DNA of 64,000 bases from Ignavibacteriota bacterium (GTDB lineage: Bacteria; Bacteroidota; Ignavibacteria; UBA10030; SZUA-254). Where the stretch lies: contig JACREZ010000034.1 in the NCBI GenBank assembly GCA_016212665.1, positions 124,001 to 188,000 on the forward strand. The letters run 5' to 3'. Below are positions 21,905-38,184 of this stretch, piece after piece. A program made the position numbers and the translations under genes. Numbering within the stretch: position 1 is the first letter of the stretch; each line of letters starts with the position of its first letter. Below the pieces are notes generated by a model, which saw only the letters and a list, made by a program, of their open reading frames with translations, had not been told where the DNA came from and did no database searches.

Positions 21905-24900
21905 ATGAAAAGTTCTTTGCAGATGAGAAAACGGGAGAAATTGTCTTTCTTTAAGAAAGCAATCGTTCTTGGCGGTATCGCTTCAATCTTATATTTATTG
22001 ATTGGAATGATTCGACTTCCGATGTTGTTGGAGGAATTGCTTCTTCCTCCAATAACAAATCCCAATCGTTATGTTAGCGAACTTATTCTTACGCTCACAC
22101 TTTTTTCTGCCGGCTTCGGGATATTTTCATTTGGTTGGTGGAAGGAATTTCAGACACGATTGTTCGGTCAAATTCAGACAGAAGATGCTTTACGCGAAAG
22201 CGAAGAGCGGTACCGGCGTTTGGTAGAAATGTCGCCGGATGCAATCGCTGTTCATATCGAAGGGAAGTTCGTGTATGTCAATCCTTCGGGAGTGAAACTC
22301 CTCGGGGCGAAAAATGCAGATGAGTTGTTAGGCAAATCAGTTCTTACCATCGTTCACCCCTACTATCACGACACTGTCCGTAAACGCGTACAAATGATGA
22401 CGGAAGAAGGTCGGGAGGTTCCGCTCATTGAGGAAAAATTTATCAGGGTTGACGGACAAATAATTGATGTAGAAGTTGCCGCAGTTCCTTTTACATACCA
22501 AGGCAATCCGGCGGTACAGGTTGTCGCACGAGATATTTCTGATAGAAAACGTTCCGGTAAAATTGTGAAGGAATGGCAGGAGCGGTATGAAAAAGTACTT
22601 TCCATTACAGACGAAATTGTATATGACTGGGACTTGAAAAAGAACAGTACGGTCTGGAGCGCAACACTTCAAACCGTGTTAGGGTATGTGCCCGAAGAAC
22701 TTAGTACGAAGAAAACTCCCTGGGAATCTTATATCCATCCGGATGAGCGCGAACATGTTACACGGCAAATAGAAAATGCTCTCTCAAAATCTTCTACAAT
22801 AGAAATTGATTACCGGCTTCGACATAAAAATGGTGAGTATCGTTTTATCCATGACCGGGCATTTATTTTCAGGGATGAACAGGGAAACGCAATTCGTTCG
22901 ATAGGTTCTATCACGGATATTACCGATAGGAAACTTGCAGAAGAAGCCCGTTTCTTGGACCAACAACGGTATAAAACACTCTTCGAATTTTCTCCAAGCG
23001 GGGTCATGTTGGAAGATGCAAACGGAACGATTGTCGATGCAAACGAATCATTCTTTCGCATGACGGGGTATTCGCGGGAAGAACTGATCGGGAATAATGT
23101 GCGATTTCTGGCTCCGCCTCAACATAGGGAACAAGTCCAGAAACATATAACTAAAATTCTTTCAGGGAATATTCTTGAACATCAGGTTGAAAATATCAAA
23201 AAAGACGGGACGTCCTATTCGATTGAGATCCGGGAACGGATGATCCGGCTGCCAAACGGGCAAGATGGAATTCTTGTCGTTGCAAATGATATTTCGGAGC
23301 GGCTGCAACAAGAGCAAAAATTAAAGAATCAATTTGAACAACTCCAGTCTATTTACTTCCTCACTGCCGCGCTCAACCACACGGACGATATTGATATAAT
23401 TTATCAAGAATCTCTTTCGGCAATTACGCGGAACTTGCATATAGACCGCGCTTCGCTTCTTCTTTTTGATAAAGACGGAATACTTCGGTTCAAAGCATGG
23501 CGCGGAATTTCTGATTGGTATCGCAGTAAGGTTGAAGGGCATACGCCGTGGAATCCACAAACAACAAACCCTGCGCCGATATTCGTGTCGGATGTTCGGA
23601 ACGAGCAAAGCCTTGCAACGTATCATCCTGTGTTTGAGAAAGAACATATTGTTGCATTAGGATTTATCCCGTTGGTTTTTCAGGATAGATTGCTGGGAAA
23701 ATTCATGGTGTATTTCGATGCACCGCACGTGTTTACTGAAACAGAAGTACAAATACTGCTTACCATTGCCGGGCATATTGCCTTTGCAATCGAACGACGA
23801 CAAGCAATGGCTGAATTAGCCGCAAGCGAGGAGAGGTATCGAACGCTTTCGGAAGCCGCACACGATGCAATATTTATCATCAATAAAAATGATGAAGTAG
23901 AGTACGTCAACAGTTTCGCCGCACAAATGTTTAATGATGTACCGTTAAACATTATCGGAAAACAACGTATGAATTTATTCCCCGGTGAAGCGGCGGCGAG
24001 ACAAGGAGAAGCGCTACGGAAAATCTTTGCAACGGGTAAACCGATGCAGTCGGAAAATCCGCTCCCGACAAAAGCAGGATTGCGTTGGCATGACACTCAT
24101 CTTGTGCCGATAAAAAATCAGGAAGGAACGGTCACATCCGTGTTGGGAATTTCCCGTGATATCACAGAACGAAAGAAGGTTGAAGACGCCTTGCGGCTCA
24201 GTGTAGAGCAGCAAGAACTTGTTCTCCGTTCTTTGCCAATGGTATTTTATACAACCGATGTTTCCAGAACCTTGGCAACGACATGGATTAGCGAACAGGT
24301 TGAACGAATAACAGGATTTTCTCCCAATCACTTTATTGAAGATGCGAAATTCTGGGAATCGCGAATTCACCCGGACGATATCGAACATGCAATGTCGGAA
24401 TACAACGGCGTTATTAAGCAGAATACTACCCGGACGGAATACCGGTGGAAGTGCGCCGATGGTTCCTATCGCTGGTTTGAAGACCAAACGGTACTGATTC
24501 GCGATTCCGCAGGAAATCCGAAAGAGATTATCGGTATCTGGCTCGATATTACTAACCAAATGCGTGCTGAAGAAAGTGTCCGAGAATCGGAAGCGCGATG
24601 GCGTTCGTTGATGGAAAGTTCGCCCGGATTAGTCCACGAAATTGACAGGCAAGGGAAGATATTATATATCAATCGCGCTACACCCGGATATGAACGGGAC
24701 AGTGTTATCGGTTCGACAATTTATGATTATGTCTCGACAGAGACGGCACTATTTATGCGTCAACAAGTCGAGGAAGTTTTTGAAAAGCAACATTCCGTCT
24801 GGTTTGAAGTTCCTGCGGCAGGTCCGTACGGAAGCGAAGCATGGTACACGTGCATCATCGGACCGATAATTAAAGATGGAAAAGTTGCTTCCGCTATAAT

Positions 24901-27900
24901 GGATTCAATTGATATCACCGAGCATAAACATCGCGAACATTTGCAAAACACTGTTTACCAGATTGCTCAGTTTGCAGACAAATCGCAATCGCCGGAAGAA
25001 CTGTTTAAGGGAGTTCACGATAGTATCAGCGAGGTTATGCATGCAAGTAATTTCTATATCGCACTGTATGATGAGCAGGATGATTTATTAAGTTTCCCGT
25101 ACTTTGTTGATGAAGTTGACGTTCCGAATCCGCCGGGAAGACCGGGAAGGGGAGTGACAGCTTATGTACTACGAACGGGAAAATCACTTCTTTGTCCCCA
25201 GAAAAAGTTTGAAGAACTTGTTCGTCAGGGAGAGATTGAATTAGTCGGAATTCCATCGCCAGTCTGGCTGGGCGTTCCGTTGATTGTCGAGGGAAAAACA
25301 ATCGGCGTCATGGCGGTTCAGGATTATCACGATGAACATGCGTACGGCGATGAAGAACTGCAAGTGCTGGAATATGTGTCATCACAGATTGCAATGACGA
25401 TTCGCCGGAAGCAGGCAGAGGAAGATTTACAACGCTCTGAAGAGCGATACCGTTCACTGTTCGAAGAATCGAAAGATGTTATTTATTTTACATCAGAGTT
25501 CGGACATATTATTGAAATCAACCCCGCTGGTGTAGAACTATTCGGGTATCATTCAAAGGAAGAACTCCTCACGGTTGATGTTGCAAATGAGTTGTACTGG
25601 GAGCCGCGGCAACGAGAAGAAGAATCACGCATTATCAGGAGACAGGGATACGTACAGGATTTTGAATTAGAACTGAAACGCAAGGACGGAACGAAAATTA
25701 CCGTTCTTGATACGGCAACAACGGTACGGGATTCTATCGGGTCCATTATCGGGTACAGGGGCATCATGCGCGATATAACCGAACGGAAACGTTCGGAAGA
25801 AGCACTCAGGGAATCGTACCAAATTGTTGAAGCGTTAATTCAGGCTTCGCCGTTAGCAATCAATGTTCTTGATTTGAATGGGAATGTTACGATATGGAAT
25901 CCAAAATCGGAGGAGATTTTTGGCTGGACGGAGAATGACGTAATCGGGAAGTCATTGCCGTATCTAACAGAAGATAAATTTGATGAATACAACTGTGCCG
26001 CCGAACGAGTGAGAAAAGGGGGTGTGTATATCGTTCACGACACATATAGAAAACGGAAAGATGGCACACTTGTACACGTCAGCATTTCGACCGCATCGTT
26101 GCGAGATGGAAACAATACTATCATCGGAACGATGGCGCTTATCAATGATATTACTGAACGCAAAAAGGCTGAGGAAGCATTGCGGCAAAGTGAAATCAAA
26201 CTCCGTGAAATAGTTGAACATAGCACGAATCTTTTCTACTCACACACACCCGAACATGTGATTACGTATGTTAGCCCACAGACTCGTTCCTATTTTGATT
26301 GTGAACCCGAGGAAGCGCTTGTCCGGTGGACAGAACTTGCGACTGAAAATCCGATAAACAATATCGGGTACGATATGACTCAACGGGCAATCGAAACGGG
26401 GATACGGCAAAGCCCGTTTCGTTTAGAACTGGTTGGAAAGAAAGCACGAAAAATTTGGGTGGAAGTGAATGAGTCTCCGGTCGTGTTAAACGGAAAAACC
26501 ATTGCCATAGTCGGCTCGCTTACCGATATAACGGAAAAAGTCAAAGTAGAAGAAGAGGTTGGGAAACTCCGTAAAGCAATCGAGTCGTTGGGTGAGGTTG
26601 TGTTTATTACAGACAAAGAAGGGATTATCACGTTCGCTAACCCTGAGTTTACCAAACTCTACGGTTACACCCAGGAGGAAGTAATCGGAAAAGTAACTCC
26701 ACGAATATTAAAGAGTGGTTCAACTTCTCGGGAAGATTATTCAAAGATTTGGGAGACGTTGTTGAACAGACAGTTTGTCAAACGCGAAATTCACAACAAA
26801 ACGAAAGAAGGAAAACAGGTTATCGTCGAATCTTCCATGAGTCCCGTGTTAGATGAATTTGGAAATATTGACGGCTTCATGGCGATTCAACTTGATATTA
26901 CAGAAAAGAAGCGCCTTGAAGAACAGTTCTTACGTTCGCAACGACTCGAAAGTTTAGGAACACTCGCCGGAGGTGTAGCGCACGATTTGAATAACGTTCT
27001 CGCTCCGATATTGCTTTCCATTGATGTTTTGAAGCGGTATGCTACAACAGACCACGCAGTGAAAATTCTTCAAACCATCCGGAGTAGCGCAGAACGCGGA
27101 AAGCATATCATTAAACAAATCCTTTCGTTTGCACGTGGTTCGGAAGGAGAGCGGGGGAATATCCAATTACGACATCTTATTAGAGAGATGGAACAAATTG
27201 CGAAGGAAACATTCCCGCGCTCAATCGAAGTTCATTGCTCGATTCAAAAAGAACTATGGACTGTGTTGGGAGATCCGACGCAATTACACCAAGTATTATT
27301 GAACTTGTGCGTGAACGCGCGCGATGCAATGCCCGATGGCGGCTCGCTGGAACTGAAAGCGGAAAATATTTTTATTGATGAGCATTTTGCAAAAATGCAA
27401 TACGGAGCGAAAGTCGGTCCGTACGTTGTTCTCTCTGTCAGCGATACGGGAACAGGAATTCCCCCTGAAGTATTACCCAAAATATTTGACCCGTTCTTTA
27501 CAACGAAACCGCAAGCGAGCGGCACGGGACTCGGTCTTTCAACCGTTCATGCAATTGTGAAGGGACACGAAGGGTTTATTGATGTGTACTCGCATATCGG
27601 AAGCGGAACAACATTTAAAGTTTTTCTTCCTGCTATAGAATCGGCGGAAGCGATACAAGTGACAAAAGCTATTGTTGAGTATCCTCCCGGCAACGGCGAA
27701 TGTGTGTTGGTGATAGATGATGAAGCGTCTGTTCGGGATATTACAAAATACACTCTTGAAATGTACGGCTACAAAGTACTCACCGCGGGCGATGGCGCAA
27801 AGGGCGTTGCATTATACAAAGAACGAAAGCAGGATATAGATGTCGTCATCACTGATATGATGATGCCGGTGATGGATGGTAATGCGACGATTCTCGCACT

Positions 27901-28060
27901 GAAGGAATTGGAGCCATCGGTAAAAATTATTGCTTCAAGCGGATTAACAACCGGCTCACAAATATCTTTTACACTTGAAACAGAAGTGTTTGCTTTTCTT
28001 GCAAAGCCATACACTGCTGAAAGTTTACTCAAAGCACTCCATGAAGTTTTAACAAAATGA
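21905..28060 (+). CDS. Giant hybrid sensor histidine kinase: 2 TM, ~10 PAS, 2 GAF, HisKA, HATPase, receiver
   Basis: Inner-membrane anchored signalling kinase of 2051 residues. Two membrane segments lie near residues 20-40 and 62-80. PAS domains start near residues 97, 225, 350, 640, 770, 895, 1178, 1301, 1426 and 1552; GAF domains lie near 480-640 and 1015-1170. The HisKA phosphoacceptor is H1693 (GGVAHDLNN), followed by the ATPase lid (VSDTGTGIPPE, GTGLGLSTVHAIV). The C-terminal receiver has D1984 (VITDMMMP). It lacks a DNA-binding output, so it should act through its own receiver or partners outside the window. Its place after nifJ suggests sensing of redox or energy state; ligands are unknown. 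Confidence 0.93.
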   Translation: MKSSLQMRKREKLSFFKKAIVLGGIASILYLLIGMIRLPMLLEELLLPPITNPNRYVSELILTLTLFSAGFGIFSFGWWKEFQTRLFGQIQTEDALRESEERYRRLVEMSPDAIAVHIEGKFVYVNPSGVKLLGAKNADELLGKSVLTIVHPYYHDTVRKRVQMMTEEGREVPLIEEKFIRVDGQIIDVEVAAVPFTYQGNPAVQVVARDISDRKRSGKIVKEWQERYEKVLSITDEIVYDWDLKKNSTVWSATLQTVLGYVPEELSTKKTPWESYIHPDEREHVTRQIENALSKSSTIEIDYRLRHKNGEYRFIHDRAFIFRDEQGNAIRSIGSITDITDRKLAEEARFLDQQRYKTLFEFSPSGVMLEDANGTIVDANESFFRMTGYSREELIGNNVRFLAPPQHREQVQKHITKILSGNILEHQVENIKKDGTSYSIEIRERMIRLPNGQDGILVVANDISERLQQEQKLKNQFEQLQSIYFLTAALNHTDDIDIIYQESLSAITRNLHIDRASLLLFDKDGILRFKAWRGISDWYRSKVEGHTPWNPQTTNPAPIFVSDVRNEQSLATYHPVFEKEHIVALGFIPLVFQDRLLGKFMVYFDAPHVFTETEVQILLTIAGHIAFAIERRQAMAELAASEERYRTLSEAAHDAIFIINKNDEVEYVNSFAAQMFNDVPLNIIGKQRMNLFPGEAAARQGEALRKIFATGKPMQSENPLPTKAGLRWHDTHLVPIKNQEGTVTSVLGISRDITERKKVEDALRLSVEQQELVLRSLPMVFYTTDVSRTLATTWISEQVERITGFSPNHFIEDAKFWESRIHPDDIEHAMSEYNGVIKQNTTRTEYRWKCADGSYRWFEDQTVLIRDSAGNPKEIIGIWLDITNQMRAEESVRESEARWRSLMESSPGLVHEIDRQGKILYINRATPGYERDSVIGSTIYDYVSTETALFMRQQVEEVFEKQHSVWFEVPAAGPYGSEAWYTCIIGPIIKDGKVASAIMDSIDITEHKHREHLQNTVYQIAQFADKSQSPEELFKGVHDSISEVMHASNFYIALYDEQDDLLSFPYFVDEVDVPNPPGRPGRGVTAYVLRTGKSLLCPQKKFEELVRQGEIELVGIPSPVWLGVPLIVEGKTIGVMAVQDYHDEHAYGDEELQVLEYVSSQIAMTIRRKQAEEDLQRSEERYRSLFEESKDVIYFTSEFGHIIEINPAGVELFGYHSKEELLTVDVANELYWEPRQREEESRIIRRQGYVQDFELELKRKDGTKITVLDTATTVRDSIGSIIGYRGIMRDITERKRSEEALRESYQIVEALIQASPLAINVLDLNGNVTIWNPKSEEIFGWTENDVIGKSLPYLTEDKFDEYNCAAERVRKGGVYIVHDTYRKRKDGTLVHVSISTASLRDGNNTIIGTMALINDITERKKAEEALRQSEIKLREIVEHSTNLFYSHTPEHVITYVSPQTRSYFDCEPEEALVRWTELATENPINNIGYDMTQRAIETGIRQSPFRLELVGKKARKIWVEVNESPVVLNGKTIAIVGSLTDITEKVKVEEEVGKLRKAIESLGEVVFITDKEGIITFANPEFTKLYGYTQEEVIGKVTPRILKSGSTSREDYSKIWETLLNRQFVKREIHNKTKEGKQVIVESSMSPVLDEFGNIDGFMAIQLDITEKKRLEEQFLRSQRLESLGTLAGGVAHDLNNVLAPILLSIDVLKRYATTDHAVKILQTIRSSAERGKHIIKQILSFARGSEGERGNIQLRHLIREMEQIAKETFPRSIEVHCSIQKELWTVLGDPTQLHQVLLNLCVNARDAMPDGGSLELKAENIFIDEHFAKMQYGAKVGPYVVLSVSDTGTGIPPEVLPKIFDPFFTTKPQASGTGLGLSTVHAIVKGHEGFIDVYSHIGSGTTFKVFLPAIESAEAIQVTKAIVEYPPGNGECVLVIDDEASVRDITKYTLEMYGYKVLTAGDGAKGVALYKERKQDIDVVITDMMMPVMDGNATILALKELEPSVKIIASSGLTTGSQISFTLETEVFAFLAKPYTAESLLKALHEVLTK

Positions 28061-28087: not shown

Positions 28088-29092
28088 ATGGATTTGAAAA
28101 CAACATACCTTGGAATCCCACTAAAAAATCCCATCATCCCATCATCAAGTCCGCTCTCCCATTCGGTTGAGAGCATGAAGCGTCTTGAAGATGCCGGCGC
28201 GGCGGCGGTTGTGATGTACTCTTTGTTTGAAGAACAAATTGCCCATGAAGCCGCCGAACTCGACCATTATCTCTCCTTCGGAACGGAAAGTTTTGCAGAA
28301 TCATTAACATACTTTCCGAACTTCGGCGAATATAATCTGGGACCGGACGAGTATGTAGAACTTCTTCGCAAAGCAAAACAATCGTTGGAAATCCCGGTCA
28401 TTGCGAGCCTGAACGGAATTACTGTCGGTGGATGGATTAATTATGCCACAAAACTTGAACAGGCTGGCGCAGATGCAATTGAACTAAATGTTTATTACAT
28501 TCCAACCGACCCGTTGCTCACCGGCGCAGAAGTGGAAGAACGGTATCTCGAAGTTCTGCACGCTGTAAAACGCGCAGTGAAAATTCCCGTTGCGATGAAG
28601 TTAAGTCCGTTCTTCAGTTCGTTCGCGAACGTGGCTCGACGATTTGACCAGTCGGGCGCTGATGGATTAGTGTTATTCAATCGTTTCTATCAGCCGGATA
28701 TTGACCTGACAACATTAGACGTGAAGCCCGGGGTTACATTAAGCACATCATTCGCTACGCGAGTACCAATGCGTTGGATTGCAATCTTACATGGAAGAGT
28801 GAATGCGAGTCTCGCGGCGACAGGCGGCATTCACACAGCAGAAGATGTGATAAAAATGTTGATGGCGGGCGCGGATGTTACGATGATGTGTTCGGCTTTG
28901 TTAAAACATGGACACCACTACATTGCTCAAGTTTTGCAAGACGTGGAGAAGTGGATGGTAGAACATGATTATGTTTCCGTTCAACAAATGAAAGGAAGTA
29001 TGAGCCAACAATCAGTTGCTGACCCGTCTGCATTCGAGCGCGCAAATTATATGAAAGCCTTAAATAAGTATCAAGGAATTGGAATAATATGA
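28088..29092 (+). CDS. Dihydroorotate-dehydrogenase-like flavoprotein
   Basis: A (beta/alpha)8 flavin-dependent oxidoreductase resembling class 1 dihydroorotate dehydrogenases: [16 protein letters not shown] at the N terminus, [25 protein letters not shown] and [19 protein letters not shown] near the phosphate-binding end. The normal class 1A catalytic cysteine context is not obvious, so it is probably not PyrD. Homologues of this type are often found beside nifJ, as here. The stop overlaps the Rrf2 start (ATGA), suggesting translational coupling. Substrate unknown. Confidence 0.85.
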
Positions 29093-29523
29093 GTATCATT
29101 TTTAGCAGGCAGTGTGAGTATGCACTGCAAGCAGTTCTTTTTCTCGCCCTGAAACCGGAAGGTGAAAAAACTTCAATCAAGGAATTAACTCAACATCTGG
29201 ATTTGCCGTATCATTTTGCGGCGAAAATTCTCCAGGCGCTCTCGCGAAAGGGGTTGCTTTCTTCCTTCAAGGGCTCGCTCGGTGGATTTGCCTTAAAAAA
29301 ATCAACCGATAAAATCACATTGTATCAAATCATCGAAGCGGTAGATGGTTTGAGTTTTATGAATGGTTGTGTTCTGGGGTTCGATGATTGTGGTGATGCG
29401 CATCCGTGTGCGTTACATGAACATTGGGGAAGGATGAGAGAGGAACTGAAACAACTTCTCACAACGAAAAGTGTTGCACAATTAGCATCAGAAATGAAAA
29501 AACCTCAATTTAACAGGAAATAA
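29089..29523 (+). CDS. Rrf2-family transcriptional regulator with a cysteine cluster
   Basis: A 144-residue winged-helix regulator. The N terminus ([16 protein letters not shown]) and the [19 protein letters not shown] recognition region are typical of Rrf2. [16 protein letters not shown] holds three cysteines spaced like the Fe-S ligands of NsrR/IscR-type members, so it may sense NO, O2 or Fe-S status. It overlaps the DHODH-like gene by 4 bases and precedes a palindrome at 29536-29559 and a redox gene group that includes a nitrite reductase and a hemerythrin. An NsrR-like role is inferred. Confidence 0.9.
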
Positions 29524-29535
29524 TAGACAAAAATC

Positions 29536-29559
29536 ATATTGGATATAAATATCCAATAT
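29536..29559. promoter_or_regulatory. Palindrome, candidate Rrf2 operator
   Basis: ATATTGGATA, 4-base spacer TAAA, TATCCAATAT: a perfect 10-base inverted repeat just after the Rrf2 gene and 117 bases before the polyferredoxin ATG. It is AT-rich with no trailing T run, so an operator is more likely than a terminator. Rrf2 proteins bind palindromes of this size; binding here is inferred. Confidence 0.5.
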
Positions 29560-29676
29560 GGCATACAAGTTGGACTATTCAGATTGGTTTTGAGGAAATA
29601 GCCCGAAAATTAAAACATTTTCAAAGAGTGTACTCTTCGGCAATCTCAAAATTGAGAACAATCTGATAGACTGACT

Positions 29677-30921
29677 ATGAAACCTGATAATACTGATTCA
29701 TCTGTTCTTACTACGAATTCATTGACGTTTACTGAACCATTCAGTAAAACAATTGTTGATACATTTCAAACAATTCCCCATCGGGCAGAAGCGCGTAAAC
29801 TGAAAATCAAAAAAATCCCGACGGAACAGCGGAAGAAAAAAATAAAGTTTTCGCTTGAACCACTCTGGTATAAACGAATTGTTCATCGCCTCCGGGATGA
29901 TTCACAATTTCTCCGCTCGACTATTCAATTCTCGTTTATCCTTCTTTGCGTCTGGATTGGCATTGAGTTCTATCTTTTCATGCAGTGGGGGATGTCGAAT
30001 GGTGAAACTACATATTTTGAACGACCTCCGGGAGTTGAAGGTTTTCTTCCTATAAGTGCGCTCATCAGTTTGAAATATTGGTTGCAAACCGGAATCATCA
30101 ACGATGTTCATCCTTCGGGGCTTTTTATTTTCATCGCGATTGTTGCAGGTGGAGTTTTACTGAAAAAAGCATTTTGCAGTTGGCTCTGCCCGGTTGGAAC
30201 GCTGAGTGAATCACTCTGGATGTTCGGGAAAAAATTATTCGGAAGAAATCTCACTCCGCCCAAATGGCTTGATTACCCGTTGCGTTCATTGAAATATCTC
30301 CTGCTGTTTTTCTTCGCCTATTCCATTTGGCAAATGACCGTACCTGATTTGCAAGCATTTATTTACAGCCCGTATAACAAAATGGCTGACGTGAAGATGT
30401 ATCAGTTCTTCGCGAACATTTCCTCATTTGCTCTCTGGACAATCATTATCCTGATGGTCTTTTCACTGTTCATAAAAAATTTCTGGTGCAGATTTTTATG
30501 TCCGTATGGCGCGTTGCTCGGAGTTCTCAGTTGGTTCAGCCCGTTGAAAATTACACGCAACAAATCCACCTGTATTGATTGTGAACTGTGTACGAAAGCC
30601 TGTCCGTCAAACATCAAGGTTCATAAAGTGAAGAGAGTGTGGAGTGATGAATGTATGAATTGTCTCGCGTGTGTCGAAGCGTGTCCGGTTAAGGAGACAC
30701 TCGATATCAGGACATCCGTCACAAAGACTCGAATCCCGAATTGGGTGTTTGGCGTCTTCGTCGTCGGTACATTTGCCGGGATAACGGGATTAGCAATGAT
30801 AACCGGGCATTGGCAAAACGGAATGACAAAGGAGGAATATCTAAAGCGTTTCCCGCAAATTGAATCACCGATATATCAGCACAACCGGGGTGAAGTTCCT
30901 CAATATGGTCCAAATGACTGA
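29677..30921 (+). CDS. Membrane-bound 4Fe-4S polyferredoxin (NapH/CcoG-like)
   Basis: Inner-membrane electron carrier of 414 residues with about five membrane segments. It shows the paired CxxxCP motifs of the NapH/NosR/CcoG group (FCSWLCPVG and WCRFLCPYG) and two [4Fe-4S] motifs (CIDCELCTKACP and CMNCLACVEACP). It probably passes electrons from quinol or ferredoxin towards a periplasmic acceptor; the octahaem nitrite reductase at 32381 is the obvious candidate, by context only. A charged ~90-residue N-terminal cytoplasmic stretch precedes the first helix. Confidence 0.85.
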   Translation: MKPDNTDSSVLTTNSLTFTEPFSKTIVDTFQTIPHRAEARKLKIKKIPTEQRKKKIKFSLEPLWYKRIVHRLRDDSQFLRSTIQFSFILLCVWIGIEFYLFMQWGMSNGETTYFERPPGVEGFLPISALISLKYWLQTGIINDVHPSGLFIFIAIVAGGVLLKKAFCSWLCPVGTLSESLWMFGKKLFGRNLTPPKWLDYPLRSLKYLLLFFFAYSIWQMTVPDLQAFIYSPYNKMADVKMYQFFANISSFALWTIIILMVFSLFIKNFWCRFLCPYGALLGVLSWFSPLKITRNKSTCIDCELCTKACPSNIKVHKVKRVWSDECMNCLACVEACPVKETLDIRTSVTKTRIPNWVFGVFVVGTFAGITGLAMITGHWQNGMTKEEYLKRFPQIESPIYQHNRGEVPQYGPND

Positions 30922-30928
30922 GTATTCT

Positions 30929-31678
30929 ATGGAAAAAATATCATCGTTTTACGATTCGCTTGCTCAGGATTATGATAGCATGATAGACTTTGAGAAGCGG
31001 TTCAACAGGGAACAACCGGTTTTCAACGGACTCGTTTCAAAGTACAGTATTCACTCAGCAATTGATGCCGGATGCGGTACAGGATTTCATTCGCTTGTAC
31101 TTGCATGGTTGGGAGTGAAGGTGACAGCAGTTGATATTTCTTCTGAAATGATTTCGCGTTTGAAGCAACGTGCTGTTGAAATGAACGTAAACATCGAAAC
31201 CGTTCTTTCGGATTTTCAACATCTTTCCGATACTGTTCGGCAGAAAGTAGATGCTGTTTTCTGTCTCGGCAATACACTTCCGCATCTTCTTTCTGATGCA
31301 GAAGTGAATCAGGCATTGACAAATTTTCGCTCTGTGTTGAATGAGCAGGGAGTAGTAATTCTTCAACTACTGAATTATGGGAGAATCATGAAGAAGAAGG
31401 AAAGGATTCAGAATGTGAAAGAACGAGATGGGAAAATATTTGTCCGCTTTTATGATTATCTTGATGATGTCATTGCATTTAATATTCTCACACTCAGGCA
31501 GAAAGAGAATCAGATGACGCACACTCTTCATACGACTCATCTGAACCCGGTGACACTATCTCGTTTACAATACAATTTGTCAAAAGCCGGCTTCCAACAG
31601 ATTGAGCATTTCGGCTCTCTTTCGTTCGAGCCGTTTGATGTCGAAGCATCGCACGACCTTATCGTCGTTGCCTCTTGA
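30929..31678 (+). CDS. Class I SAM-dependent methyltransferase
   Basis: Rossmann-fold methyltransferase: SFYDSLAQDYDSM at the N terminus, motif I AIDAGCGTGFHS, acidic end of beta-2 VTAVDIS, and VDAVFCLGNTLPHLL. I use ATG 30929, 7 bases after the polyferredoxin stop, because the family motif starts there; ATG 30914, overlapping the previous gene, is also possible. The substrate is unknown. Its sequence resembles small-molecule or glycine/sarcosine-type methyltransferases more than RNA or DNA ones. Confidence 0.8.
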   Translation: MEKISSFYDSLAQDYDSMIDFEKRFNREQPVFNGLVSKYSIHSAIDAGCGTGFHSLVLAWLGVKVTAVDISSEMISRLKQRAVEMNVNIETVLSDFQHLSDTVRQKVDAVFCLGNTLPHLLSDAEVNQALTNFRSVLNEQGVVILQLLNYGRIMKKKERIQNVKERDGKIFVRFYDYLDDVIAFNILTLRQKENQMTHTLHTTHLNPVTLSRLQYNLSKAGFQQIEHFGSLSFEPFDVEASHDLIVVAS

Positions 31679-31712: not shown

Positions 31713-32159
31713 ATGAACCAATCAACCATCACAAACTATTATGAAGACGACCATGACCGGCTGGATAATCTCTTCAAACAATTTCAATCATTAAAACGAA
31801 ACGAACTTCCGAGAGCGAAAGAATTTTTTCTTGAGTTTCATTCGGGATTGCTTCGACATATCATGTGGGAAGAGGAAATTCTCTTTCCACTCTTCGAACA
31901 AAAGACAGGAATGCATCACTCTGGTCCGACGGAAGTAATGCGGATGGAACACCGTGTAATCAAGAAACATCTTGAAGCAATACACACCGCAATTCAATCG
32001 GGCAATCCTGAAACTGATTCGGACGAACAGACGATGCTCAATACGTTGTTCGCCCACAATCAAAAAGAAGAGCAAATCTTATATCCGGCGATTGACCGAA
32101 CGATTAACAGTAACGAACGGGTAACCGTATTTCAGAAGATGGAAACCGTTTCTCAATAA
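31713..32159 (+). CDS. Hemerythrin-like HHE-domain protein
   Basis: A 148-residue four-helix di-iron protein. Expected ligand motifs are YYEDDHDRLD, FHSGLLRHIMWEEEILFP, MRMEHRVIKKHLEA and FAHNQKEEQILYP. ATG 31713 is preferred because AAAGGA precedes it. Such proteins bind O2 or NO or repair Fe-S clusters; the Rrf2 regulator and nitrite reductase nearby favour a nitrosative-stress role, by inference. A terminator follows at 32234. Confidence 0.88.
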   Translation: MNQSTITNYYEDDHDRLDNLFKQFQSLKRNELPRAKEFFLEFHSGLLRHIMWEEEILFPLFEQKTGMHHSGPTEVMRMEHRVIKKHLEAIHTAIQSGNPETDSDEQTMLNTLFAHNQKEEQILYPAIDRTINSNERVTVFQKMETVSQ

Positions 32160-32233: not shown

Positions 32234-32270
32234 AGGGCTGAAACAGGTCATGTTCAGCCCTTTTGATTTT
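32234..32270 (+). terminator. Rho-independent terminator
   Basis: A 9-base stem AGGGCTGAA / TTCAGCCCT with a 10-base loop, followed by TTTGATTTTT. It ends the upstream redox operon and separates it from the nitrite reductase gene. Confidence 0.85.
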
Positions 32271-32380
32271 TATATAAAATAAAGGAGAATAAACTTCGTT
32301 TCTGATGGCATTAGAATTGTACAGAGGCATATGTCTTAGAGTTTTGTATCTAATTATCCTATTATCTTGAAAGAAGAACA

Positions 32381-34000
32381 ATGAAACGTATATTTGTTAT
32401 TTCTATCATTCCCCTGTTCTTATTTATCACTGTTGGTTTTATCATTTTGATTCCGGAAACAACGGAACCATCGCCCGTGCAAGCGGTGAATCCGCAGCAG
32501 TGTTTTGAGTGCCATGAAGAAGTGAAAGAACTTCACACCGGAAGCAAGCATGCAAAATTGAACTGCACAACATGTCACTCGGAACTGACAAAGCATCTTG
32601 AGGACGCGACGAGCAAACCGGTGACGAATCTCGAACTGACGAAATGCGGCGGTTGTCACAAAGACCAGTACGAGTCGTTCATGCACGTGAATCTTGCATC
32701 GAAAGCGAAGTTGGAGAAGGCGACAACGACAAGCCGCTCGCCAACGTTCGATAAATTAATGACGCCGCACGGTTTTACCAAAGAGCATGATGAGCCGCGC
32801 AGTCATGCGTTCATGCTGATGGACCATTACATCGTTGACCGCGCATACGGCGGCCGTTTTCAATTAAAGAGTTGGCAGAACATTACGAAGACCGGAAACG
32901 TATGGGATTTTCTGGAAGATAAAGAACCATCAACAAGCGACCAGAAAGCATTTATCACACAGTCGGCAACAGCCGCAAACCCGACGTGCATCAGTTGCAA
33001 ATCCACCAATCAAATTCTTACATGGAAATATAAAGGCGAGCCATCGCCCGATGCAAAATGGTCGCGCACGTCGAAAGTTGTCGAGATGGCGCGTGCAATC
33101 AATCAACCGGTCGGATGCATTCATTGTCACGACCCGCACGGAACAAATCCGCGAGTTGTTCGCGATGCGTTGATTGAAGCAGTGGTTGACCGCGGCGAAG
33201 GAACGTATCCGTATGACAAAGAAAAAAGCAAGCAAATCACGATGAAGAAAATTACGTTCAGAGATTTTCGGGCTATCGGAATCTTAAATAAAAAAGATTC
33301 CAATCTCATGTGCGCTCAATGTCATGTCGAGTACAACTGCAATCCCGGGCACGACCCGAAAACCGGGGAAGCAATCGGGTACGCAGATTCCCGGACAAAT
33401 ATCTTTCCGTGGGTGAACGTTCTGGATTACAATAAGAAGATGGAAACATTTAACTTCAAGGACTTCAAACATGCAGTGACCGGGGCGTCGCTTTCCAAAC
33501 TTCAGCATCCCGAATCGGAAACATTCTGGAATAGCAAACATGAACGTGCCGGAGTTGAGTGTAAAGATTGCCACATGCCGAAAACAAAGAAGGGAAACAA
33601 AACGTTTACCTGGCACGGACAGAAGAGCGCACGATACATGACGAAAGAAACGTGTTTGAATTGCCATAAAGAATGGAACGAAAAGGAAGCCGAGTACCAG
33701 ATTGATGCAATTCAGAATTATATCCGCGGCAAGATGCGAAAAGCGGAATATAACATCGGCTTGTTCATTGATACGTACACGCGGGCGAAAGATGCAGGTG
33801 TTGATACTACGGCGCTGAAAGAGTCACGCAAGTATCACGATCAGGCACACTCACTGTGGGAGTGGTGGACAGCAGAAAACTCTGATGGATTCCACAATCC
33901 GACAATTGCCCGTGAATCCTTGACGCAATCAATCACCGCCGCACAGGATGGAATCAAGTTTCTGGAAAAAGCCATAACAGAAAAGAAAGCATTGAAATAA
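32381..34000 (+). CDS. Octahaem c-type nitrite reductase (TvNiR type)
   Basis: Periplasmic ammonia-forming nitrite reductase candidate of 539 residues with an N-terminal signal/anchor. Eight haem motifs occur in order: CFECH, CTTCH, CGGCH, CISCK (C203-K207), CIHCH, CAQCH, CKDCH, CLNCH. The fourth, with Lys as haem ligand, is the catalytic haem in octahaem nitrite reductases such as TvNiR; NrfA has only five. After the sixth motif, HVEYNC places Y318 and C320 as in the Tyr-x-Cys pair that forms a thioether crosslink in TvNiR. H376 (LQHPESE) fits the active-site His. A porin-like gene follows. Confidence 0.93.
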   Translation: MKRIFVISIIPLFLFITVGFIILIPETTEPSPVQAVNPQQCFECHEEVKELHTGSKHAKLNCTTCHSELTKHLEDATSKPVTNLELTKCGGCHKDQYESFMHVNLASKAKLEKATTTSRSPTFDKLMTPHGFTKEHDEPRSHAFMLMDHYIVDRAYGGRFQLKSWQNITKTGNVWDFLEDKEPSTSDQKAFITQSATAANPTCISCKSTNQILTWKYKGEPSPDAKWSRTSKVVEMARAINQPVGCIHCHDPHGTNPRVVRDALIEAVVDRGEGTYPYDKEKSKQITMKKITFRDFRAIGILNKKDSNLMCAQCHVEYNCNPGHDPKTGEAIGYADSRTNIFPWVNVLDYNKKMETFNFKDFKHAVTGASLSKLQHPESETFWNSKHERAGVECKDCHMPKTKKGNKTFTWHGQKSARYMTKETCLNCHKEWNEKEAEYQIDAIQNYIRGKMRKAEYNIGLFIDTYTRAKDAGVDTTALKESRKYHDQAHSLWEWWTAENSDGFHNPTIARESLTQSITAAQDGIKFLEKAITEKKALK

Positions 34001-34118: not shown

Positions 34119-35360
34119 ATGAAACATCTTTTCATTCTCTTTATCCTCGCATTGTTTGTTTCAACTGCGTTCGCACAAGATTTCACACCATCCACAAAAT
34201 GGAGCGGTGAAGTTCGCGTACGTAGCGAAGTGGACATGCGGGACTTCAACAATCTTACACCCGCAAACACTTACACGCTTCTCCGCTCACGGTTAGGATT
34301 TGAAGCATTGCCTGTTGAAAATGTGAAAGCATTTCTTCAGGTTCAGGATTCCCGAACATTCGGTCAGGAACAAACCACGCAGACAGATTTAAAAAATCTC
34401 GATTTACATCAGGGATATCTTGAGGTTTCAAAATTTATCTCCGATAACATGACACTTAAACTCGGACGGATGGAACTTGCCTACGGGAACGAACGCATTC
34501 TTGGCGCTGTCGGGTTTCATAATTTCGGGCGGGTGTTTGATGGCGGCTTATTGAAAATCAATACCGAATCATTCGGGTTAGATGTGATGGCAATGAACCA
34601 CACTGAAGTTCAGGCATATCAACCGAATGCAACACTTGCAACTACAGCGTATGTTTGGGATGGCGGCTATGATATTTATGGCGGCTATGCAACACTCAAA
34701 GGAATTGAGAATCAGAAAATTGACGGTTACTTGCTCTATCAATGGAACAGAACGACGACGGTTACGAACAATTCCGATTTGGCTCGTTTCACTCTCGGCG
34801 GTTACGGCAAAGGAAAGTTCGATGAGTTCGATTACGAAGCGGAACTTGCGTATCAGGGTGGAAAAGTCCGCGACCTTGATGCCGCGGCGTACATGCTCAC
34901 CGCAACGCTCGGATATTCATTGAGTGATATGCCGGTCTCCCGCGTCGCAGTCGGTTATGAATTATTAAGTGGAACTCCCGCCGGCGACACGAAATACAAA
35001 TCGTTCGACCCGACATTTCATACCGGGCACAAGTTTTATGGCTTCATGGATTATTTCATCAACATCCCGGTGAACACAGGCGGACGCGGGTTAGCCGATT
35101 TACTTGTTCGCGCAACGATGAAAGTTTCAGACCGAGGGACATTGAATTTCTGGTTCCATAATTTCTCACTTGCAGAAGATGTGAACGGCGAGAAAGGTCT
35201 CGGACAGGAAATTGATTTGACCTACTTGTGTAAATACAATTCCAATCTCAATCTCGAACTCGGTGCCAGCACATTCATCCCGGGCGAATTGATGCGTGCA
35301 AACTTCGGTAGCGCAGATGCCGCATTCTGGGGATATTTCTCAGCGAGTGTAATGTTTTAA
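34119..35360 (+). CDS. Outer-membrane beta-barrel, alginate-export/porin-like
   Basis: A 413-residue protein whose signal peptide ends VSTAFAQ and whose last residue is Phe (SASVMF), as in outer-membrane barrels. The body has alternating strands typical of the alginate-export-domain family (SGEVRVRSEVDMRD, LLRSRLGFEAL, LKLGRMELAYGNERILG). ATG 34119 is used because it places the signal peptide at the N terminus. Lying directly after the nitrite reductase, it may admit nitrite or another small anion; substrate is inferred. Confidence 0.82.
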   Translation: MKHLFILFILALFVSTAFAQDFTPSTKWSGEVRVRSEVDMRDFNNLTPANTYTLLRSRLGFEALPVENVKAFLQVQDSRTFGQEQTTQTDLKNLDLHQGYLEVSKFISDNMTLKLGRMELAYGNERILGAVGFHNFGRVFDGGLLKINTESFGLDVMAMNHTEVQAYQPNATLATTAYVWDGGYDIYGGYATLKGIENQKIDGYLLYQWNRTTTVTNNSDLARFTLGGYGKGKFDEFDYEAELAYQGGKVRDLDAAAYMLTATLGYSLSDMPVSRVAVGYELLSGTPAGDTKYKSFDPTFHTGHKFYGFMDYFINIPVNTGGRGLADLLVRATMKVSDRGTLNFWFHNFSLAEDVNGEKGLGQEIDLTYLCKYNSNLNLELGASTFIPGELMRANFGSADAAFWGYFSASVMF

Positions 35361-35527: not shown

Positions 35528-35566
35528 GAAGCCGCTTGGGTCGCTCCCGGCGGCTTCTCTATTTTG
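35528..35566. terminator. Bidirectional terminator between convergent genes
   Basis: GAAGCCGC / GCGGCTTC, a perfect 8-base stem with a GC-rich loop, followed by TCTATTTT. It lies between the converging porin and DUF3800 genes and overlaps the last codons of the latter. Confidence 0.7.
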
Positions 35567-36347
35567 GATAATAGACAATCCCAAAGGGACTTTTGCTTGC
35601 GCGTGGATTAAATCTGTGTTTTAAAACATCGAGTAATTTTAAATCATCGCCATATGAAAGAACGTCAAGAACTCTTTTTGCCCAACCCTGTTTTGGTTCA
35701 CATAAGTTTTGTTTGGCAAACAAACTAACTAAAAAAGAAATCATATCTACAATTTGAATAAAATACGATTCATCAGATGATTTTGGAAGAGGGTCCTCTA
35801 TTAATCTTTCAATTTCCTTTCTGTAGGGTTCGGGATAGATTTGGGAAGGGATATAATTAATACGTTGGATGGACCGTGTTGTTGAACGCATCATTTTAAT
35901 TCTTCCTTCATCTGTAATGATAAGGAATTGTCCATCATGTTCAGGGAGGTTGAGATCGTTTTCAATACGTTGAATATTATATGTTAAAGCATTCTTTAGT
36001 ACCTCGTATTTAGGTCTTCGTATTTTTGTTTTATCAATGACCACTGAAATGATTTTGAAATCTAAAGTTGAGATGAAGTTACAAAAATCAAAAAGAATGT
36101 TTTTTCGTTCAACAGGTTTGTATTTGCCATGGTAGGGGTTCTTATCTGTAATGAATTCCTTTGTATGAAATTCTGATTTAACAGGAAAATCCCAAGTTAT
36201 CTTAAGTCCTTGACGAAACTTCTGAATGGAATAGTAATTCTGTTTCCATTTTGAATAATGAAAGTAGATACTGCTTAGAACAAATAATTCAGACGAATAA
36301 TCAGGATAACCATCATCGCCTGATTCATCAAAATAAGAGATAAACAT
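35559..36347 (-). CDS. DUF3800-domain protein
   Basis: A 262-residue protein with the DUF3800 signature: FISYFDESGDDG at the N terminus, an internal IITDEGR, and SYFIQIVDMISFLVSLF near the C terminus. These conserved acids look like an RNase H-like metal site. Members occur singly in accessory regions and some are linked to defence; function is not established. It is more AT-rich than the flanking symporter gene, which suggests acquisition by transfer. Confidence 0.85.
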   Translation of the reverse strand: MFISYFDESGDDGYPDYSSELFVLSSIYFHYSKWKQNYYSIQKFRQGLKITWDFPVKSEFHTKEFITDKNPYHGKYKPVERKNILFDFCNFISTLDFKIISVVIDKTKIRRPKYEVLKNALTYNIQRIENDLNLPEHDGQFLIITDEGRIKMMRSTTRSIQRINYIPSQIYPEPYRKEIERLIEDPLPKSSDESYFIQIVDMISFLVSLFAKQNLCEPKQGWAKRVLDVLSYGDDLKLLDVLKHRFNPRASKSPFGIVYYPK

Positions 36348-36363: not shown

Positions 36364-38184
36364 TCAAATGACTTGTTTGGGCTGGTTTGATTTCTTCCCC
36401 CACAACTTATTCATCACATACAGTAACGCAAGACCTGAAATGATGAACACCGCAAGCAGCGGGAACGCATAGTTCATTCTTCCATACAGAAAATTTCCGA
36501 CGGTGAAGAGCGATGACCAGATTGCTGTGCAACCGGAAAGCCAGCCGAGCAATGCAAGCGGAATATTTTCTGCAGATTTTTCATCTCGTTCTTCACCAAC
36601 TTCTTCGCGAATGTGTTTCCAGCCGGGACCGAAGGGTCGAACTTTTTTGTAAAAACTGATAAGCACTTGCTTATCGGTTGGAGGTGCGAGATACGCGGTG
36701 AGAATCCAGCAGAGAGTTGTGAAGGCAATCGTAATGAGCAACGCCGTGTGCGTGTTGAAATGAATTCCGTTTTTGCTGAGAATGAGTAACACCAATGAAA
36801 TGGCGAACGAACTGACCATTGCCGCAACTTCGCTCCACGCATTGACCCGCCACCAGAACCAACGCACAAGATAGAGCAAGCCCGTTCCCGCGCCGACTTG
36901 CAGGATAATATCGAACGCGTCCTTTGCGCTATCCAATACGAACACAAATGCTGATGAAAAAATAAAGAGGAGCACCGTGGTTACGCGGCCTGCGAAAACA
37001 TAATGCCGGTCATCTGCATCTTTGCGGATAAAGCGTCTGTAAAAATCATGCACGAGATACGATGCGCCCCAGTTGAGATGTGTGAGAATTGTGGAGGAGT
37101 TTGCGGCAATCAGTCCACCGACCATCAAGCCAATAAACCCGACGGGAAGAAATTTTAACATTGCGGGATATGCGATGTCGTGACCGAGAAGTGTCGGGTC
37201 TAAATCAGGAAATGCTTTTTGAATGTCCGAGAGTTCGGGATAGATAATCAACGATGCGAGCCCGACCAGAATCCAGGGCCAGGGACGGAGAACATAATGA
37301 GCGATGTTGAAAAACAGAACCGCTCCAAGCGAATCTTTTTCCGACTTTGATGCCAACATACGTTGTGCGATATAACTTCCGCCGCCGGGTTCTGCGCCCG
37401 GATACCAGACCGCCCACCATTGCACCGCAATCGGCATAATGAAGACCGCAATCGCCATATCCCAGTTGTTGGTAAAATCGGGAAGAACATCAAGATAATT
37501 CAGTCCGCCGGGACCTTTCATCGCCGAAACTTTCTCTACCAAGCCGCTGAGTCCGCCAACCTGTGGCAGGTTGATAGCAAAATATGCGGCGGCAATTACT
37601 GCGGTCATCTTGATAAAGAATTGAATCATGTCAATCACCAGCACGCCCCACAGTCCGGAGTGTGTTGCAAAAATGACATTCAACATTCCGACTGCAAGTA
37701 ATGTTTGCCATCGTTCAAGTCCGAAAAGAATGGCGGCGATTTTACATGCGGCAAGATTCACCGTTGCCATAATCATGCAGTTGAAAAACAATCCCAGATA
37801 GACCGAACGAAAGCCGCGTACAAAACTTGCCGCTTTTCCTGAGTAACGGATTTCATAAAATTCCAAGTCAGTCATGACGTTGGAGCGGCGCCACAACCGT
37901 GCATAAAAAAATACCGTTGCAACTCCGGTGAGAACGAACGCCCACCAAACCCAGTTGCCTGCAACACCTTGTCGCCGCACAATATCGGTGACGAGGTTTG
38001 GCGTATCACTGCTGAACGTTGTGGCGACCATCGAAAGTCCGGCAAGCCACCACGGGACGGAGCGACCGGAAACGAAAAACTCGGAAGTGCTTTTCCCCGC
38101 GCGTTTGCCAAAGAACAATGCCGGGAAAAAGCAGATGAACAATGTGAAGGCAATAATCAGCCAGTCAATCAGTTGGAGATGCAT
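36364..38184 (-). CDS. Sodium:solute symporter (SSS family)
   Basis: A 606-residue inner-membrane transporter with about 13-15 helices. Seen: LIDWLIIAFTLFICFFPALFFGKRAGKSTSEFFVSG at the N terminus in two parts, AGLSMVATTFSSDTPNLV, and the MVGGLIAANSSTILTHLNWGASYLVHD region containing the conserved sodium-site serines. It resembles sodium:sugar symporters. Alone between unrelated genes; substrate unknown. Confidence 0.88.
   Translation of the reverse strand: MHLQLIDWLIIAFTLFICFFPALFFGKRAGKSTSEFFVSGRSVPWWLAGLSMVATTFSSDTPNLVTDIVRRQGVAGNWVWWAFVLTGVATVFFYARLWRRSNVMTDLEFYEIRYSGKAASFVRGFRSVYLGLFFNCMIMATVNLAACKIAAILFGLERWQTLLAVGMLNVIFATHSGLWGVLVIDMIQFFIKMTAVIAAAYFAINLPQVGGLSGLVEKVSAMKGPGGLNYLDVLPDFTNNWDMAIAVFIMPIAVQWWAVWYPGAEPGGGSYIAQRMLASKSEKDSLGAVLFFNIAHYVLRPWPWILVGLASLIIYPELSDIQKAFPDLDPTLLGHDIAYPAMLKFLPVGFIGLMVGGLIAANSSTILTHLNWGASYLVHDFYRRFIRKDADDRHYVFAGRVTTVLLFIFSSAFVFVLDSAKDAFDIILQVGAGTGLLYLVRWFWWRVNAWSEVAAMVSSFAISLVLLILSKNGIHFNTHTALLITIAFTTLCWILTAYLAPPTDKQVLISFYKKVRPFGPGWKHIREEVGEERDEKSAENIPLALLGWLSGCTAIWSSLFTVGNFLYGRMNYAFPLLAVFIISGLALLYVMNKLWGKKSNQPKQVI

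Follow-up and report, generated by a model that had tools for sequence, protein, structure and literature searches.

Octahaem nitrite reductases (ONR) are recognized by seven CxxCH haem motifs together with a CxxCK motif in fourth position (PMC5433712, PMC10716430), and the onr gene has been reported from 14 Phyla of Bacteria and one of Archaea (PMC10716430). A 2025 review (PMC12285233) calls it unclear what makes some bacteria carry ONR, NrfA, or both. For Melioribacter, a set comprising an Rrf2 regulator, NrfHA, and an "electron transfer protein" has been published (PMC3534657), and for Caldithrix, the menaquinol-oxidizing alternative complex III (ACIII) has been proposed to feed the octahaem epsilon-Hao (PMC5317091), a member of another family than ONR.

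The locus described here lies in a stretch of 64,000 nucleotides from an Ignavibacteriota bacterium (the window). We propose, with a probability of about 0.7, that its ONR fills the place of NrfHA in an Rrf2-regulated gene set for nitrite ammonification and acts as a periplasmic nitrite-to-ammonium reductase.

The octahaem reductase and its relatives

The protein carries CxxCH at residues 41, 62, 89, 246, 311, 394, and 425 and CISCK at 203: eight haem motifs in total, seven CxxCH and one CxxCK, with the CxxCK being the fourth. Its sole Tyr-x-Cys, Y318-N-C320, directly follows the sixth motif, CAQCH (311-315). An earlier note on this DNA, made from the sequence alone, had pointed to the same motifs and residue pair and had assigned the protein to the TvNiR type instead of the five-haem NrfA, and the comparisons bear this out. 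A phmmer alignment with TvNiR (2ot4) spans residues 33-535 with E = 2e-188, and 276 of 502 residues (55%) are identical in a global alignment. Among solved structures, TvNiR and TvPaR come closest (E 2e-188 to 5e-183), the ONR structure of T. ammonificans matches with E 1.2e-161, and the NrfA structures are distant (best E 6e-25). The NCBIfam model for NrfA scores 104 bits against a cut-off of 595, which together with eight motifs, not five, shows that the protein is not an NrfA; Pfam Cytochrom_C552 represents a homologous catalytic core common to ONR and NrfA. The octahaem reductases of the HAO and epsilon-Hao type have eight CxxCH and no CxxCK, and this identity is ruled out by the CISCK at 203.

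As ONR we counted proteins with seven CxxCH and one CxxCK in fourth place, Tyr, Arg, and Cys in the active site, a His located between the sixth and seventh sites, and an identity to TvNiR that exceeds 40% across the length; the window protein has this motif pattern, Y318, R154, C320, and H376, and an identity above 40%. Further traits of the family are the Tyr-Cys thioether bond, assembly as a hexamer, and the conversion of nitrite to ammonium. TvNiR R131, K188, Y303, C305, Q360, and H361, which we take to be the catalytic residues and whose identity in the TvNiR chain was confirmed, align with R154, K207, Y318, C320, Q375, and H376. The alignment on which the earlier note had staked its assignment thus puts Y318/C320 exactly on Y303/C305, with no displacement from the catalytic haem; the two residues, placed by alignment, are a candidate thioether pair. 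An AlphaFold model (20 sequences, mean pLDDT 78) superimposes on the Thioalkalivibrio TvNiR/TvPaR chains with Z about 42 (3ttb: 423 residues, rmsd 2.4), with an rmsd of 22 for the alignment rows spanning the N-terminal tri-haem part, on 8rv0 from T. ammonificans with Z 39.1, and on NrfA with Z 23.5 at most. We are nearly certain that this gene encodes a TvNiR-family ONR. As an enzyme it is an ordinary new member of a known family and adds only a further lineage.

Scanning genome contigs gave 224 confirmed stretches with ONR relatives, and the best 80 of these 224, which were retained, include Nitrospirota, "Deltaproteobacteria", Beta- and Gammaproteobacteria, Bipolaricaulota, Acidobacteriota, Omnitrophota, and Ignavibacteria. 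Together with the window, TvNiR, and two further loci (L125 and L126), and with the duplicate loci L092 and L127 dropped, they form a set of 84 sequences, in all of which R154, K207, Y318, C320, Q375, and H376 are invariant (the row of L071 is cut at a contig end). The Tyr-x-Cys pair as a peculiarity of the window protein was accordingly rejected. Given this invariance and the published range of onr, neither the residue pair nor a host outside the Gammaproteobacteria is new; the novelty that the earlier note saw in the latter falls also with the ONR known from Trichlorobacter (structures 8rv0/8rvm/8rxu).

Within the class, ONR (E <= 1e-100) is present in 6 of 391 genomes: the window genome, G282 (locus L125), G025, G074 (L001), G095 (L002), and G128 (L003), of which L002 and L003 belong to the same taxonomic order as the window. 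The window's family has it in 1 of 15 genomes. A quick maximum likelihood tree of 83 rows, with L071 left out, places the six ONRs of the class in one set (SH-aLRT 99) and the window closest to L125 (94), with the branching within the set mostly unresolved. Such a patchy occurrence fits gene transfer or repeated loss.

The gene set around ONR and its customary partner

Table 1. Features of the ONR locus (nucleotide positions of the window, or residues of ONR where so given)
Feature	Position	Strand	Remarks
Dihydroorotate-dehydrogenase-like gene	28088..29092	+	Heads block in this family's genomes
Rrf2-family regulator	29089..29523	+	Cys 94, 101, 107 kept in five relatives compared
26-bp palindrome, candidate operator	29535..29560		Between Rrf2 and PolyFd; holds TTGGA-N8-TCCAA (29539-29556)
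NapH-like membrane polyferredoxin (PolyFd)	29677..30921	+	CxxxCP at 167, 271; 4Fe-4S motifs at 299, 326
SAM-dependent methyltransferase	30929..31678	+	Member of conserved block
Hemerythrin (HHE)	31713..32159	+	Weakly YtfE/DnrN-like
Terminator-like hairpin + T-rich tail	32234..32271	+	Between HHE and ONR
TTAGA-N8-TCTAA, candidate weaker operator	32336..32353		27 bp ahead of ONR start codon
Octahaem nitrite reductase (ONR)	32381..34000	+	ATG start, 539 aa plus stop
ONR N-terminus	about residues 2-22		Signal or anchor helix, eight haem c motifs thereafter
ONR catalytic haem 4	C203-I-S-C206-K207		Active-site set R154, K207, Y318, Q375, H376
Outer-membrane porin-like barrel	34119..35360	+	Pfam Alginate_exp, E = 1.7e-34; adjoins ONR

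The porin-like gene and the upstream polyferredoxin mentioned in the earlier note are both real (table 1). The porin scores well above the gathering threshold of Pfam Alginate_exp (119.7 vs. 25.2 bits); its structure model, built from three sequences, has a pLDDT of 48. PolyFd remains under the cut-off of the NapH/MauN subfamily (88 vs. 213 bits), suggesting a NapH-like function at most. The Rrf2 protein passes the cut-off of its superfamily (103.7 vs. 73.3 bits), lies below that of NsrR (55.5 vs. 182 bits), and is a candidate Fe-S/NO sensor. ONR lies 1.46 kb from PolyFd, with the methyltransferase, the hemerythrin, and the terminator-like hairpin intervening, and napA is not among the typed neighboring genes of the window.

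Directly upstream of the conserved block lies a 2051-aa ORF (21905-28060), which we take to be a hybrid sensor kinase with many PAS/GAF domains and a C-terminal receiver; a partial relative is found at the same position in G002 (L129). Beyond the porin follow two genes on the opposite strand, 35559-36347 (-) and 36364-38184 (-), the latter presumably for a sodium/solute-symporter-like protein, and no relatives of either were found among 80 ONR loci.

To place this arrangement, we consider the distribution of its members across the class. PolyFd was found in 179 of 391 genomes, NrfA (E <= 1e-30) in 163, and the porin (E <= 1e-60) in 48. Linkage was counted from the listed coordinates, covering 150 PolyFd places, 150 NrfA places, and all 48 porin places; at random, two places are expected to lie within 10 kb in about 0.6% of cases. 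Among the matches listed, PolyFd and NrfA are at most 10 kb apart in 47 of the 74 genomes having both, porin and NrfA in 27 of 34, and porin and PolyFd in 17 of 29. Fifteen of these last 17 genomes have no ONR; picked for their porin-PolyFd linkage, they are not a random sample, and the block includes NrfA in every one of the 15. Fourteen also have a called NrfH, and in the remaining locus (L187) it lies in a frame missed by the choice of ORFs. Rrf2, the NapH-like PolyFd, and the porin are a conserved set, the customary partner of which in this class is NrfHA, and since PolyFd and the porin both adjoin NrfHA in ONR-less relatives, they are tied to nitrite ammonification. Porin homologues in relatives adjoin NrfA, ONR, or an ACIII operon: by the listed coordinates 18 of 48 adjoin neither reductase, although G288 among these does have NrfA next door, and four reductase-less porins (G037, G115, G242, and G016) close an ACIII operon, with ACIII named by comparison.

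The tie of this set to ONR is looser. The porin lies within 10 kb of ONR in all three genomes having both, that is, in three of the six ONR genomes, and was not found (E <= 1e-60) in the other three. PolyFd is present in 6/6 ONR genomes against 173/385 others (Fisher p 0.009); it lies within 10 kb of ONR in two of the six and on a separate contig in four. The earlier note had suggested that porin and polyferredoxin complete a nitrite-to-ammonium system with ONR. The larger set stands insofar as both genes adjoin NrfHA in relatives; a PolyFd specific to ONR does not, with 179 of 391 genomes encoding the one and 6 of 391 the other, and only two of six pairs within 10 kb. The gene set belongs first to NrfHA, and its tie to ONR in the window is probable.

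The best evidence for an alternation of ONR and NrfHA in one locus is a site with three states in family f5. Between its flanks, G161 has nothing, G128, of the same genus, has porin-ONR, and G148 and G172 have porin-NrfA-NrfH. The shared flank consists of Rrf2-PolyFd and an octahaem c554-like cytochrome, the latter outside the stretch of G148; the other flank, a gene we take to be PolA-like, is seen in G128 and G161 and not in G148/G172. Identity to G128 is 61% for the porin (G148, G172), 59-62% for Rrf2, 64-71% for PolyFd, and 76-77% for the octahaem cytochrome (G161 and G172). For G148 and G172, the values of Rrf2 and PolyFd are 60-62% and 64-69%. The ONR of G128 thus sits in the NrfHA position directly beside Rrf2-PolyFd, in the order of the gene set. 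An empty, an NrfHA, and an ONR form of one site in close relatives, with regulator and PolyFd kept, offers a direct comparison for the question of ONR versus NrfA. In the open-licence literature of PubMed Central we recognized no description of ONR in an NrfHA locus or beside ACIII. A mutual exclusion of the two reductases in the class is not claimed: NrfA occurs in 1 of 6 ONR genomes and 162 of 385 others (p 0.41).

The one ONR genome with NrfA is that of the window, which encodes NrfH and NrfA on the same contig about 69 kb upstream of ONR (C34:85695-87701; L083:9696-11702). This NrfA, of which G002 has an ortholog with 94% identity, contains five CxxCH and lacks CxxCK, so that ONR has a CxxCK motif in a genome where NrfA manages without one; the NrfA proteins of G148, G172, G245, G193, and G274 have CxxCK as their first motif. 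The active-site Tyr is without a following Cys in all seven NrfA checked (CHVEYYF; six from other genomes and the window genome's own). Two CcmF-type lyases are encoded in the window genome. The one on contig C19 was considered as dedicated to the CxxCK haem of ONR and rejected, with relatives in 373 of 391 genomes, including ONR-less members of the genus (90% and 76% identical). This lyase (L175), conserved in the genus, adjoins a multihaem cytochrome with 11 motifs and what are presumably Rieske/cytochrome b-like genes. In ONR loci of Pseudomonadota (e.g., L042, L052, L069), by contrast, Ccm genes lie close to ONR, where they may form a set devoted to maturation of the CxxCK haem. The clusters, typed by one representative each, occur among 82 loci as follows: CcmF-type 33, NrfG-like TPR 32, CcmA 26, CcmC 19, CcmE 16, and CcmB 11.

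Operators, electron donors, and alternative explanations

A palindrome, AATCAGA-N8-TCTGATT, recurs in the loci compared (36 matches with at most two mismatches in 829 kb, vs. 15 in 2,488 kb shuffled). It is found near the starts of Rrf2, PolyFd, or porin genes in 22 of 33 loci, with 20 shuffles giving 0-1 of 33 each, the loci with this site at Rrf2/PolyFd/NrfHA operons being drawn from L176-L190, L128-L143, and L003. It also stands 41-44 bp ahead of ONR in L001 and L126 (0/300 shuffles each), and is absent ahead of ONR in L125, L002, and L003. A literature search found no paper on this palindrome. In both L001 and L126, ONR lies beside a gene that we take to be glycyl-radical activase-like, with an additional, presumably pyruvate-formate-lyase-like, gene in L126.

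The window lacks this form. Its two candidate operators (table 1) share the pattern TTRGA-N8-TCYAA, which was written after both sites had been seen: two places in the window vs. 0.35 expected, a number reached in 3 of 100 shuffles. The 3.9-Mb genome has 16 places, fewer than the 28 of the reversed control, and the eight distinct places examined outside the window all lie in or touch ORFs. The class operator model scores the site upstream of ONR no better than chance (98/300 shuffles). A shared operator for PolyFd and ONR in the window is at most suggested, given the post hoc pattern, the commoner reversed control, and this chance-level score. A site in similar register, ATTTGGA-N8-TCCAATT, is found in G002; the 26-bp palindrome as a genome-wide operator was rejected, with its full form occurring once in the genome.

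Whether ONR belongs to its upstream neighbors is the first matter to be weighed. An ordinary ONR and a porin might have been acquired together, downstream of an independent block for nitrosative stress or redox functions. Most of this block occurs without ONR in the same genus and family (G001, G002, G007, G011, and G010), in the stretches covered (L128-L133) also without NrfHA or porin; the difference in frequency between PolyFd and ONR and their separation across contigs in four of six genomes point the same way, as does the hairpin, which implies a separate ONR-porin transcript and which a consensus terminator scan did not list. Against such a chance landing stand the ONR of G128, which takes the place of NrfHA directly beside Rrf2-PolyFd, the single operator that precedes NrfHA-type operons and, in two relatives, ONR, and the presence of PolyFd in every ONR genome. 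We regard a chance landing as unlikely, and slightly favor a tie of ONR to the Rrf2-PolyFd-porin set in this window.

The electron donor is a separate matter. In G282 the ONR gene lies about 200 bp downstream of ActA-ActF (ActABCDEF) on the same strand, and in G095 the Act genes are followed by hemerythrin, ONR, porin, and a presumably MoaA-like gene, with only the hemerythrin between ACIII and ONR. Among these genes ActD was called by Pfam, ActC by its NrfD domain, ActA by its five haems, and ActF provisionally. The pentahaem ActA, and not PolyFd, may hand over menaquinol electrons to ONR, in line with the proposal for Caldithrix. All six ONR genomes have ACIII (in G128 by partial matches), and NrfD-type membrane genes precede ONR in L016 and L023; in the latter, genes for a four-haem cytochrome and an Fe-S protein come first. 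However, the ACIII of the window genome is on another contig (C41), and ACIII is not specific to ONR, as it occurs in all 10 ONR-less relatives searched. We consider this donor possible for the window, at clearly less than even odds. With ACIII, NrfD-type genes, and a gene cluster represented by NapA (a member in 9 of 82 ONR loci) all as neighbors, ONR keeps company with several quinol-oxidizing modules, and the ACIII-ONR gene order provides a testable candidate for the unsettled physiological donor of this enzyme.

The enzyme might also detoxify nitrite, hydroxylamine, or NO instead of serving respiration, as its company of a three-Cys Rrf2 regulator and a hemerythrin could indicate, and NrfHA elsewhere in the genome could handle respiration. 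Yet NrfHA, which this very gene set also carries, serves respiration in relatives that have been cultured, and Melioribacter may use nitrite as an electron acceptor (PMC3534657). We regard a detoxifying role as unlikely.

Under our preferred reading, with ONR in the place of NrfHA, the porin would admit nitrite, and ONR would reduce it in the periplasm to ammonium in a six-electron step at haem 4 with its Lys ligand, where R154, H376, and Tyr318 would assist, the latter probably cross-linked to Cys320. Hydroxylamine and sulfite would be side substrates, as judged from TvNiR. Rrf2 might sense nitrite, NO, or Fe-S damage, and menaquinol electrons would reach ONR through some membrane module distinct from a dedicated NrfH. 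For the class as a whole, we tentatively suggest, with somewhat less confidence than for the window, that ONR and NrfHA are interchangeable and partly mobile fillings of a site at which regulator, PolyFd, operator, and porin stay, whereas other members plug ONR into ACIII. If true, ONR would be a donor-agnostic enzyme that needs no dedicated NrfH.

Comparison with known systems

TvNiR and TvPaR of Thioalkalivibrio (2ot4, 3ttb) share with the window protein the eight haems, the fourth CxxCK, the active-site residues, the Tyr-x-Cys, and the fold, and differ from it by an identity of 55% and a host of a different Phylum. Unlike many ONR loci of Pseudomonadota, that of the window has no adjacent cluster of the Ccm/NrfG type. 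TaNiR, the ONR of Trichlorobacter ammonificans (8rv0), belongs to the same enzyme family, and its donor is reportedly proposed to be of the NapGH type; the window likewise has a NapH-like protein near ONR. Unlike the Nap-ONR locus of T. ammonificans, the window pairs this protein with no NapG, and it comes from a set whose customary partner is NrfHA. NrfA is expected to catalyze the same reaction with a homologous catalytic core, but has five haems and no Cys after the active-site Tyr. In the nrfHA locus of Melioribacter roseus (Mros1098-1101; PMC3534657), Rrf2, a multi-TM electron-transfer protein, and a nitrite reductase stand together as in our gene set, with NrfHA where ONR would be; this locus is probably that gene set in its NrfHA version.
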